DNA of 64,000 nt from Thermococcus gammatolerans EJ3 (GTDB lineage: Archaea > Methanobacteriota_B > Thermococci > Thermococcales > Thermococcaceae). The stretch lies in NCBI RefSeq assembly GCF_000022365.1, contig NC_012804.1, positions 1,302,001 through 1,366,000 on the forward strand. Direction: 5' to 3'. Every line of letters starts with the position of its first letter. Position 1 is the first letter of the stretch. A program made the translations under genes and the position numbers. This document shows, in pieces, positions 1 to 44,509 of the stretch. The notes beneath the pieces were generated by a model. The model did no database searches and was not told the origin of the DNA. It worked only from the letters and a program-made list of their open reading frames with translations.

Positions 1-1225
1 CCAGCAGGTCTCTGGGCGTCAGAACCTCTATTCCTTCGGGTTCGCGCTCGAGAACGTCTTCGCTTGGGACAATGAGCACTCTGCGGCAGTCGAAGCGCGA
101 TAACTTCTCCTCAATCTTCCTCACTTCCTCCCTCTTTACCCTATCCTTCCACTTGACCTCTCCGACGAGTTCGAGCCTTTTGAACCCCTGTAAAGCTATG
201 TCAAGCTCAAGCTGGGGAAGCTCGACACTCACCCTTCTCAAACCATAGGCCTTGGCGAGTAAATCAGCGATGAAGTCCTCAACATGCCTCGGAAGCTTGT
301 AATCGACGGCCCTTCTTATGAACTCCACGGACGTTTCAAGCTCTGTGTAGGCGTACTTGGCCTCAAGATAGAAGTGTAGGTCGAGGAGGGGCGAGGCGTG
401 CCGGTAAACGAACTTTTTGCGCCTCTTGCCCTGAACCAGGAACTTGCGCAGGATTCCCATCTTCGTGAGGATCGTGAGGTACTTCTGGAGCGTCCCGGGG
501 TTGTCCTTCTTCAGCAGGCCGCGGGAGAAGAGTGCAGAGGAAAGTTCGGTGCTCGTCCCCTTTCCGTTGGCGACTTCCATCATTATCCCGAGGTAAACCC
601 TCGTCAGTTCGTGACCCTCTTCGCTGAAGGTCTCGCCAACGAGCTCGCTCACGAATGAACCCGAGGACGAAAAGAAGCCGGTTAAAAAGTCCCTCAGCGG
701 GGGTTTGTAAGCCGGCACGAGCATGGGCTCCCTCAGGTAGGTTGAGGCCTCTATCAGCTCCTTCCTCTTCACTTCCTTTGACAGCTCCACCAGAATTTCG
801 CGCTCGTCTATGAGTCCGATTTTCACGAGGAAAGCTATCCCAAGGAGCGGGCTTTCCCTCATCGAGAGAAGCCTTTGAGCGAGCCACATGGTTGAGGTTA
901 CGAGTATCACCTGGCTGTCCTGTTCAGTTGAGTATGTGTGCAGGAGGTCGAGGAAGCCCTCGGGAAGGCGGTGGAACTCGTCGATGACGATTCGTCTCTT
1001 CTCCTTAACCAGCCTTGGAAAGAGCCTCATGAACTCTTGGTAGGTCATTTTATCGTTGCTCAGCCTGTCGTGGACTGTGCTGTCTTTGTTCACGAAGAAG
1101 AACTCGTCGTAGTCGAGGAAGTGCTCGACGAGGAAGGTCTTGCCCGTCTTTCTCCTTCCGTAGAGCATCTTCCAGTCGGGGTATTTCAGGAAGGCACGTT
1201 CAATTTTTCGGGGAATTATTCTCAT
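1..1225 (-). CDS. Archaeal P-loop ATPase with DUF234-type C-terminus (3'-truncated by window edge)
   Basis: The minus-strand reading frame begins at ATG 1225 (MRIIPRKIERAF) and stays open to base 1, so the C-terminus lies outside the window. A Walker A motif (YGRRKTGKTF) sits near residue 20 and a Walker B-like RRIVIDEFHRLPEG near residue 80. The middle reads like a winged-helix region, and the last visible part (RLELVGEVKWKDR) matches the nuclease-like C-terminal domain common in this family. Such ATPases are abundant and variable in Thermococcales and their cellular role is not established. The start lies in the middle of a perfect palindrome (separate entry), with a TATA-like TTTATAAT about 26 bases upstream, which suggests leaderless transcription. 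A second member lies at 43097-44464. Confidence 0.85.
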   Translation of the reverse strand, partial: MRIIPRKIERAFLKYPDWKMLYGRRKTGKTFLVEHFLDYDEFFFVNKDSTVHDRLSNDKMTYQEFMRLFPRLVKEKRRIVIDEFHRLPEGFLDLLHTYSTEQDSQVILVTSTMWLAQRLLSMRESPLLGIAFLVKIGLIDEREILVELSKEVKRKELIEASTYLREPMLVPAYKPPLRDFLTGFFSSSGSFVSELVGETFSEEGHELTRVYLGIMMEVANGKGTSTELSSALFSRGLLKKDNPGTLQKYLTILTKMGILRKFLVQGKRRKKFVYRHASPLLDLHFYLEAKYAYTELETSVEFIRRAVDYKLPRHVEDFIADLLAKAYGLRRVSVELPQLELDIALQGFKRLELVGEVKWKDRVKREEVRKIEEKLSRFDCRRVLIVPSEDVLEREPEGIEVLTPRDLL

Positions 1226-1238
1226 GAGAATAATTCCC
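1211..1238. promoter_or_regulatory. 28-bp perfect palindrome centred on the ATPase start codon
   Basis: Each half reads GGGAATTATTCTCA followed by its exact reverse complement. The central CATG contains the minus-strand ATG of the ATPase gene at 1225. A further AATAATTAT copy follows at about 1242-1250, overlapping the putative TATA box. The position over the predicted transcription and translation start suggests an operator or an mRNA hairpin that represses the gene; this is inference. Confidence 0.7.
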
Positions 1239-42515: not shown

Positions 42516-43139
42516 ATGCTGGAGCTGTTCTTGGAGCTCGGAAACCTGAAGAGGCTCCCGAGAACGGGATGGCTTTTGCGGGGGATTCCCAATCCCGAGC
42601 CCATAGCGGCCCACTCCTACAGGGTTGCCACGATAACCCTTTTTCTGGCCGATGAGCTCAAATCAAGGGGCGTTGAGATCGACGTTGAGAAGGCACTCAA
42701 GATAGCACTCCTTCACGACGCTGGGGAGGCAAGGATAACGGACGTTCCCCTGCCGGCCCAGAGGTACTTCAACAAGGTCGAGGGCGAGGTCAAGGCGCTG
42801 GGGGAGATGCTGAGCATTACGGGCAGGGAGGGGGAGTACCTAAGCCTGTTCCGCGAGTACGAGGAGGAGCTGAGTGTAGAAGGAAAGCTCGTTAAGTTCG
42901 CCGACAGGCTGGAGATGCTGATTCAGGCTTATGAGTACGAGAAAGCGGGCTTTGCCAACCTCGACGAGTTCTGGAGGACGGTGGAGAAGCTCCGTGAGAG
43001 CGAGCTCTATGAATACTTTAGGGACATCGTTGAGGGGCTCGTGGAGCGGAGGAAAAAGTTGCATCGGGGGTTAGCTCACTCCCACTACAACAACCCTCAA
43101 CTTCCAGTGGAGAAGTCCTCCAAGTCCCAGATGAGATAA
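42516..43139 (+). CDS. HD-domain 5'-deoxynucleotidase-like hydrolase (YfbR/HDDC2 type)
   Basis: A protein of 207 residues. The metal site is PIAAHSYRVATITLFLADEL, then KIALLHDAGEARITDVPLPA, and a later Asp in LVKFADRLEMLIQAYEYEK, all as in YfbR/HDDC2 deoxynucleoside monophosphatases. GGAGGAGTGAGC precedes ATG 42516. The last about 15 codons (HSHYNNPQLPVEKSSKSQMR) read across the 3' end of the convergent ATPase gene, so the native tail may be unusual for the family. Confidence 0.88.
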   Translation: MLELFLELGNLKRLPRTGWLLRGIPNPEPIAAHSYRVATITLFLADELKSRGVEIDVEKALKIALLHDAGEARITDVPLPAQRYFNKVEGEVKALGEMLSITGREGEYLSLFREYEEELSVEGKLVKFADRLEMLIQAYEYEKAGFANLDEFWRTVEKLRESELYEYFRDIVEGLVERRKKLHRGLAHSHYNNPQLPVEKSSKSQMR

Positions 43140-44464
43140 CTTCCGGCCCTCAGTTTTTCTTTCTCCCCAATTCTCTTAGCAATCAATCCATAACTCTTTT
43201 CCCAGCCCTCAAGACTCACAAGCTCGGCCTTTCTCTTCAAGTCCTCCAAGATACCTCTTGCCTCCCTCTCGCTCAAATCCTTCCACTTAACCTCAACGAA
43301 GAGCGCTCGTTTTTCCCGCTCGTTCAAAGCGACCAAATCAATCTCCTCACCCTTCCGCCACCACCTGCCAATTTTTGTAAAGCGGAACGGCAGTTTTTCA
43401 GCCCTGTTCATCCCGATTAAAAATTCCTTAGCAATCTTCTCAAAAACCCAGCCGAGGTAGCGGTTGAAGTTCCTCTCAAAGTGCCCAAGAGCCTCATCGG
43501 GAAGCCCAATCTCTATCTCCTCCTTGAACGGGTAAACGAACGTGTAGTAGAAGGCGAAGTAGTTGTCCCGTATGAAATACCGCGAGTTCCTTGCCCGTTT
43601 CTTCGGCTTTTCCGTAACGGGAGCTTCCCTGCCAACGATGCCGAGGTTTATGAGTATGCTGAGGTAGCGCGTCAGCTTTGACCCGTCGAGTCCTGTAATG
43701 TTCCTAAGCTCGTTGAACGAGCGGTGGCCGTAGCTTATCGCCTCGAGAATCGTGTTGTATGTGCTGAGGTCTCGGAGCTCGTATCGGAGCAGGTATTCCG
43801 CTTCATCGTAGAGGAAGCCCCTCCCGAAGAACTCCTCCCGCGCGTTCTCCTCGGGCGAGAGTGACGGGTCGAGGCGGAGCAGGTACTCTGGAATCCCATC
43901 AACCATGCCGTAGACCTTGACGAGGTCTTCAAGGCAGTAGTTCGGAAAGAACTCGCCGATGTGGCGGAACTTCAGCGGTTCAACCTTAAGCGAGAGGGTT
44001 CTTCTCCCGTAGATTGGACTGCCGTAGGAAACGAGCCTCTCCATCATCGAGACGCTCGAACCGCAGAGGACTACACTCCCCCTCCCCCTGAAGTCCAGAT
44101 GCTCCTGAAGGACGCCGAGGATTCTGGGGTGGTTTTTGGCCAGAACCTGAAACTCGTCGAAGATAACCACAACGTCCTCTGGCAGTCTCTCAAAGAACTC
44201 CTCAAACGAGCGTACTGGATGCCTTAACAGCGAATCATCGCCCGTGAGCGAGAAGAGCTTCGCGTTGAGGGTTTTCAGGGTCTCGTTCACTTCCTCCTCC
44301 TTGCAGAGGTGGTAGAGCGTTCTAAACCCTTTGGAAGCCTCTATGAGGAGCCTTGTCTTCCCGACCCTTCGCCTGCCGTAGACCAAGATTAGCGCACCTC
44401 GCGTGAATGCCTTCCTCAGTGTCTTCAGCTCCTCTTCCCTATCAACGAACTTTTGTGTAATCAT
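43097..44464 (-). CDS. Archaeal P-loop ATPase with DUF234-type C-terminus
   Basis: A 455-residue ATPase. Walker A is ILVYGRRRVGKTRLLIEASK, Walker B DVVVIFDEFQVLAKN. A winged helix lies around residues 245-300 (GHRSFNELRNITGLDGSKLT). The C-terminal part has a PD-(D/E)xK-like pattern (RKGEEIDLVALNEREKRALF then VEVKWKDLSERE). Together these suggest an ATP-driven nucleic-acid enzyme or regulator of unknown task. The ATG 44464 lies at the centre of a palindrome, as in the homologue at 1-1225, and TTAAATAA about 27 bases upstream implies leaderless transcription. A decayed relative lies just upstream. Confidence 0.88.
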   Translation of the reverse strand: MITQKFVDREEELKTLRKAFTRGALILVYGRRRVGKTRLLIEASKGFRTLYHLCKEEEVNETLKTLNAKLFSLTGDDSLLRHPVRSFEEFFERLPEDVVVIFDEFQVLAKNHPRILGVLQEHLDFRGRGSVVLCGSSVSMMERLVSYGSPIYGRRTLSLKVEPLKFRHIGEFFPNYCLEDLVKVYGMVDGIPEYLLRLDPSLSPEENAREEFFGRGFLYDEAEYLLRYELRDLSTYNTILEAISYGHRSFNELRNITGLDGSKLTRYLSILINLGIVGREAPVTEKPKKRARNSRYFIRDNYFAFYYTFVYPFKEEIEIGLPDEALGHFERNFNRYLGWVFEKIAKEFLIGMNRAEKLPFRFTKIGRWWRKGEEIDLVALNEREKRALFVEVKWKDLSEREARGILEDLKRKAELVSLEGWEKSYGLIAKRIGEKEKLRAGSYLIWDLEDFSTGS

Positions 44465-44483
44465 GATTATGTAATCGTGATTA
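44458..44483. promoter_or_regulatory. Tandem 12-bp palindromes over the ATPase start codon
   Basis: TAATCATGATTA (44458-44469) is a perfect palindrome whose central CATG holds the minus-strand start codon. TAATCGTGATTA (44472-44483), two bases on, is the same sequence with one change. They cover the predicted transcription start and start codon, so a bound protein would block the gene. The spacing of 14 bases also makes them direct repeats. Confidence 0.65.
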
Positions 44484-44509
44484 TGTTATTTAAGGGTTTC
44501 GACGTCAAG

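Follow-up and report, generated by a model that had tools for sequence, protein, structure and literature searches.

Tandem palindromes at the promoters of PDC-S27-type ATPase genes point to a probable autorepression operator

We analyzed a window of 64,000 nucleotides from Thermococcus gammatolerans EJ3 (contig NC_012804.1, positions 1,302,001 to 1,366,000), in which an ATPase gene on the minus strand begins inside one of two adjoining palindromes. The gene and the parts of its product are as follows.

43097..44464, minus strand: ATPase gene, a 455-aa open reading frame with ATPase_2 (aa 6-198), winged-helix (aa 233-298) and PD-(D/E)XK-like DUF234 (aa 306-405) parts (Pfam scan)
43250..43549, minus strand: DUF234 domain, PD-(D/E)XK-like (Pfam scan)
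43571..43768, minus strand: winged-helix domain (aa 233-298), from the secondary structure of the AlphaFold2 model
43646..43684, minus strand: predicted recognition helix of the winged helix (aa 261-273; AlphaFold2 model), the best tracker of operator similarity (see below)

By its Pfam scores (PF01637, 79.4 bits against a cut-off of 33.2; PF03008, 122.5 against 22.5), the protein is classed as a member of the ATPase_2-DUF234 (PF01637/PF03008) ATPases. The Walker A and B residues (G35-K36 and D103-E104) are intact and invariant in 37 aligned members, as are the nuclease-like PD-(D/E)XK residues D376, E391 and K393. An AlphaFold2 model of the protein had a mean pLDDT of 91, and the nearest solved folds were the archaeal ATPases 2qen (PABY2304) and 2fna (SSO1545), followed by STAND and ORC/Cdc6 proteins, 2qen being also the sole convincing sequence match. 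PADLOC models of PDC-S27, a candidate phage-defence family, matched the protein nearly full-length (E 9.9e-33 over aa 5-398 and E 4.3e-31 over aa 2-452). PDC-S27 comprises ATPases fused to a PD-(D/E)XK-superfamily domain, with 3503 copies in archaea and 4562 in bacteria, and experimental validation is pending for most candidate defence families of this kind (PMC12988326). A defence role of the T. gammatolerans ATPase may thus be inferred from its membership in PDC-S27, itself of candidate status. Conservation across the family is far higher in DUF234 than in the ATPase or winged-helix part, and DUF234 barely separates the operator types described below. Gene conversion homogenizing DUF234 between paralogues was considered and found unsupported, identities being alike within a genome (74%) and between genomes (73%).

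The start of the gene carries the following features.

44458..44469, no strand: putative operator dyad 2, TAATCATGATTA, start codon at its center, predicted to lie over the transcription start; type consensus
44462..44464, minus strand: ATG start codon of the ATPase gene, whose mRNA is predicted to be leaderless (TATA-to-ATG median of type B, 26 bp)
44472..44483, no strand: putative operator dyad 1, TAATCGTGATTA, spaced 14 bp from dyad 2; supported by the consensus of 14 members of the type
44487..44494, minus strand: TATA box CTTAAATA, its center about 26 bp before the ATG
about 44495-44502, minus strand: A-rich BRE, just upstream of the TATA box

On the minus strand, the gene start reads CTTAAATAA-CATAATCACGATTA-CATAATC[ATG]ATTACACAAAAG. 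An earlier note on this DNA had described a start codon inside a palindrome and a near copy of that palindrome two bases on, and both descriptions held: the ATG at 44464-44462, which opens the 455-aa frame, lies within TAATCATGATTA (44458-44469), and the copy, TAATCGTGATTA, occupies 44472-44483. A lone perfect 12-bp palindrome is unremarkable, the window containing 22 of at least 12 bp, and since its significance was too weak, we used a tandem test that scores four half-sites. The ATPase start scored 22 out of 24, a value matched by none of 1,000 dinucleotide shuffles, and the exact tandem pattern occurred at only six places in 61 Thermococcaceae genomes, all six of them starts of family genes. 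The tandem dyad at this start is thus unusual, unlike a lone palindrome.

The design was common among relatives. Within Thermococcaceae, 135 family members from 61 genomes had enough upstream sequence for analysis; 96 of them were positive in the tandem test, compared to none of 22 control genes of the window, and a simple inverted-repeat test (p <= 0.05) was positive for 72 of the 135 and for 2 of the 22 controls. Palindromes are therefore not absent from most members, the finding that the earlier note had named as one that would refute it. An alignment search returned 80 loci, mostly from other archaea and many bacterial phyla, and outside Thermococcaceae the tandem test was positive for 43 of 75 members versus 2 of 75 neighboring control genes of the same loci, the dyads being spaced by 15 bp in 36 of the 43. 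An independent held-out set, fetched later and filtered to less than 60% identity to earlier members and to one another, gave 25 positives among 42, with a 15-bp spacing in 17 of the 25. Within Thermococcaceae, most members of three operator types (2, 7 and 9) failed the four-half-site test and kept mainly the outer arms. Elsewhere in the T. gammatolerans genome, a paralogue (1269619-1273164) whose reading frame is broken near its start has the operator TACTCATGAGTA. Three ATPase_2 genes of the same genome with an MCM-type winged helix and without DUF234 (L006, L009 and L011) carry long dyads near their starts, for example CCCCAGTAGTTAACTACTGGGG.

The window holds a second ATPase gene with a palindrome at its start.

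2..1225, minus strand: companion ATPase (AAA_14), which runs past the window edge; weak PDC-S01 match
1211..1238, no strand: perfect 28-bp palindrome GGGAATTATTCTCATGAGAATAATTCCC at the companion ATPase start, ATG at its center

None of 1,000 shuffles attained the tandem score of the companion, and a core of the ATTCTCATGAGAAT type was kept in most of its 16 orthologues (61 to 100% protein identity). The proposal that two homologous genes carry different palindromes was borne out as regards the dyads, which both genes carry; the homology is distant, with 24% identity over 409 columns and a BLASTP E value of 0.005. Another branch of the AAA_14 family to which the companion belongs (L402-L413) has start sites of a different sequence, resembling ATTATTATAATGGTGATTATAAT. 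Beside the companion gene, at 1604-2494, three small genes, encoding by eye an AbrB-like protein, a small protein and a PIN-like protein, resemble a toxin-antitoxin-type cluster.

The position of the dyads was compared to those of the promoter and the start codon. The center of the TATA box precedes the ATG by 25 to 27 bp in most types and by 36 to 39 bp in three. In published maps, the TATA box is found about 23 to 27 bp ahead of the start site, and mRNAs are called leaderless when their leader is at most 8 nt long (PMC4247193, PMC5316973). Since the TATA-to-ATG distances match these published values, the mRNAs of most of these archaeal genes should be leaderless. With distances counted from the TATA center, most types have one dyad at about +12 to +14 bp and the other at about +26.5 to +28.5 bp, their midpoint falling at 19 to 21.5 bp; the operator is shifted by about 7 bp in type C and about 3 bp in type 2. 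The three types with a longer leader have GGTGA(G/T/A), a match to the Shine-Dalgarno consensus GGDGRD, at the center of the second dyad. In type C, the central ATG is replaced by ACG, GTG or GCG in some members with the dyad kept, and an upstream ATG can act as start codon. Because the dyad-to-TATA distance is kept while the ATG moves, the operator is fixed relative to the core promoter (TATA box and start site) and not to the ATG. The "ATG-at-dyad" geometry of the earlier note is therefore correct for leaderless genes and fails as an invariant, given the three types with a Shine-Dalgarno sequence at the dyad center, and we discarded the coincidence of ATG and dyad as the function itself. Of 28 bacterial members, 23 had a TATAAT-like box at the edge of the operator, compared to a background rate of 12.5%; this excess is partly due to operators themselves containing ATAAT.

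The nucleotide sequence of the coding half of the operator was itself constrained. In six types whose operator reaches into the gene, and comparing only members sharing the same amino acid, the synonymous third bases of codons 2 and 3 were 80% identical, compared to 55% in codons 13 to 60 (p 0.0002). The presence of a start codon or a Shine-Dalgarno sequence within a dyad could also mean that the palindrome acts at the RNA level, folding into a hairpin that masks the start codon or the ribosome site, and bacterial operators appear to fall in the 5' leader, where such a hairpin could form. In most archaeal types, however, the TATA distance predicts a leaderless mRNA, which would leave the upstream arms untranscribed, and the fixed TATA distance of the tandem dyads, together with their type-specific sequences, suits a DNA site better. 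We consider an RNA hairpin very unlikely.

Clustering of the promoter-start regions gave eleven recurring operator types, every one with a distinct sequence, such as TTTACTnnnnAGTAAATTACTGGTGAGTAAA for type A, TAATCnnGATTAtaTAATCATGATTA for type B, to which the gene at 43097-44464 belongs, TACTCnnGAGTATGATACTCATGAGTA for type C and TGATAATnnnnATTATCATAACGGTGATTATCA for type D. Mean protein distances were 0.16 to 0.37 within operator types and about 0.54 between types, showing that operator type and protein subfamily coincide closely. Type 6 was the most heterogeneous, with within-type protein distances of up to 0.55, and types 3 and 4 were close to each other. Operator similarity correlated with protein distance (rho 0.38), while the DNA upstream of the promoter did not (rho 0.03). 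A lack of correlation between ATPase subtype and palindrome, the second finding that would have spoken against the earlier proposal, was thus not what we observed.

We then searched the 61 genomes for sites matching the patterns of two types, A and B. With up to two mismatches, the type A pattern gave 25 distinct sites, all 25 at family gene starts, and the type B pattern gave extra sites at family genes plus a few others: two sites at an unrelated gene, three next to remnants of decayed genes and one where a contig ends; reversed control patterns of both types had no match in these genomes. Sites of types A and B are thus almost exclusive to family gene starts. The unrelated gene, found in a genus designated g4 (L183, 1490-1540, and L184), has its ATG inside a type B operator and encodes a hydrophobic protein of 265 aa with the look of a membrane protein and no Pfam match; the gene may have captured the promoter or be a second target. 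At three loci (L191, L195 and L196), the tandem dyads have outlived their genes, one gene having lost most of its reading frame and the other two being decayed remnants.

These data also bear on whether the palindromes arose by chance or from the base composition of AT-rich promoters and were inherited with the gene. The regions are indeed AT rich, and lone 12-bp palindromes are common, but the dinucleotide-preserving shuffles, the control genes, the lack of reversed-pattern matches in the 61 genomes, the synonymous constraint and the missing similarity signal upstream of the promoter all argue against this explanation, which we regard as barely credible.

We next asked where in the protein similarity follows that of the operator, the earlier note having suggested, as a check, that palindrome sequence be correlated with the winged-helix region. 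Sliding protein windows were compared to operator similarity among pairs more than 60% different, with the rest of the protein controlled for. The maximum over the whole protein fell at aa 257-284 (partial rho 0.18 to 0.20, reached by none of 60 permutations), a segment that includes the recognition helix of the model, aa 261-273. When one protein per cluster was kept (36 proteins), the recognition-helix windows were the top two, with point p values of 0.005 and 0.0025 and, after correction over the whole protein, family-wise p values of 0.11 and 0.25. For the held-out members, the discovery protein closest in the helix had an operator that was similar as well (mean percentile of 0.68, p 0.0003); the helix windows ranked second and fourth there, another window being first and other windows scoring equally well, and whole-protein similarity predicted operators too (0.63, p 0.006). 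Among distant proteins, operator similarity thus appears, on moderate statistics, to track the recognition helix of the winged helix best. In this check, the helix region topped the scan, with the family-wise p of 0.11 weakening the correlation. A one-residue code seen in the discovery set, a lysine before Tyr-Leu going with ACT half-sites, was dropped, since it was found in 2 of 4 versus 2 of 21 held-out cases (p 0.11). Some distant pairs had closely similar operators: a Thermococcus protein (L012) and a Methanoperedens protein (L339) share 48% identity and a near-identical operator, TATTCACTTA(G/C)TGAATAATTCAGT(T/A)GGTGAATA, and a Selenomonas protein (L236) and Thermococcus type B, 32% identical, both have TAATCACGATTA.

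No partner gene recurred beside the family, the type B loci being covered for the upstream 1.5 kb only, and the commonest flank family was common to one other of 15 loci and three others of 80 loci. Self-recognition is favored by this lack of a recurring partner, and binding of the ATPase to its own operator is supported by the helix correlation, the near-exclusive siting and the lack of a recurring neighbor taken together. We infer from these sequence comparisons that the ATPase probably binds its own operator. The operators could instead be bound by a separate trans-acting repressor, or by one for each operator type. Such a regulator would fit the type B operator at another gene in two genomes, and the match between subfamily and operator could partly reflect shared descent of gene and promoter. 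Against it, the many types per genome would need many regulators and no regulator gene recurs nearby, the recognition helix of the ATPase itself tracks the operator better than most of the protein does, and the design is found in both archaea and bacteria. We judge a separate repressor to be unlikely, though by no means negligible.

Taken together, these observations suggest that the palindromes are probably the operator of an autorepressed gene whose product, the ATPase, would bind there by means of its winged helix. The ATPase-nuclease would bind, through its winged-helix domain, the four half-sites of an operator made of two dyads, usually 15 bp apart (14 bp at 43097-44464), set between the TATA box of its gene and the start site. 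A protein bound between the TATA box and the start site usually blocks the archaeal polymerase, and the position of the site thus suggests repression as the sign of control: the operator-bound protein would block recruitment or initiation by RNA polymerase and so keep expression low. With a distinct operator sequence for every subfamily, cross-regulation among paralogues of the same cell would not be expected. In leaderless genes, start site, start codon and operator center would coincide, and the ATG would fall within a dyad because the mRNAs are mostly leaderless.

Self-binding might instead mainly activate or poise the gene, or mark a site on DNA for the nuclease, as could be imagined for an ATPase of STAND-like class with a nuclease-like domain; the STAND-like ATPases IniR and MalT, which activate transcription, provide a precedent (PMC5760070). 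The location of the operator, where a bound protein would be expected to block polymerase, and the finding that sites of types A and B lie almost only at the family's own genes argue against this reading, which we hold to be very improbable. A bolder extension of autorepression is that, in archaea and bacteria alike, each PDC-S27-type ATPase has a private operator code which its own winged helix reads, and that the protein parked on its operator is inactive, so that release would both derepress the gene and free the nuclease. Invading DNA or a change of nucleotide state are examples of what might titrate or remove the protein and so trigger this release. We find this extension rather doubtful; if it were true, the operator would be the built-in switch of a one-gene defence system.

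The conserved operator provides a first testable handle on the abundant PDC-S27 family, namely, what the protein binds and what releases it, and it suggests that the level of the ATPase is probably held down. Paralogues with private operators form a natural data set, spanning two domains of life, for the recognition code of winged helices, and the tandem dyad could aid the annotation of true start codons and of family members.

Control by autorepression through an operator over the start site is known in general and appears to be new for this ATPase family, for which we found no earlier description of the operator design; subscription literature lay mostly outside our search, and a prior report is possible. 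The ATPase matches PDC-S27 over most of its length (E 1e-32), and the main text of the recent survey of archaeal defence that covers PDC-S27 makes no mention of palindromes, operators, promoters or autoregulation (PMC12988326); the regulatory design is the new part. The related 2fna and 2qen proteins, at about 350 aa, are too short for a full DUF234 after the winged helix, unlike the 455-aa ATPase, and no operator for SSO1545 or PABY2304 was described in the texts consulted. In toxin-antitoxin modules and with restriction-modification control proteins, the system's own product binds dyads over the promoter of a small defence-type unit. Here, in contrast, the ATPase, DNA-binding and nuclease-like parts are in a single protein, and neither the conserved two-gene operon of toxin-antitoxin modules nor a recurring antitoxin or controller gene was found beside the family. 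In position, the operator resembles the sites of archaeal repressors acting between TATA box and start site, and this predicts a block of polymerase recruitment or initiation; those repressors are dedicated regulators, whereas the regulator proposed here is an ATPase-nuclease whose target is essentially its own gene alone.
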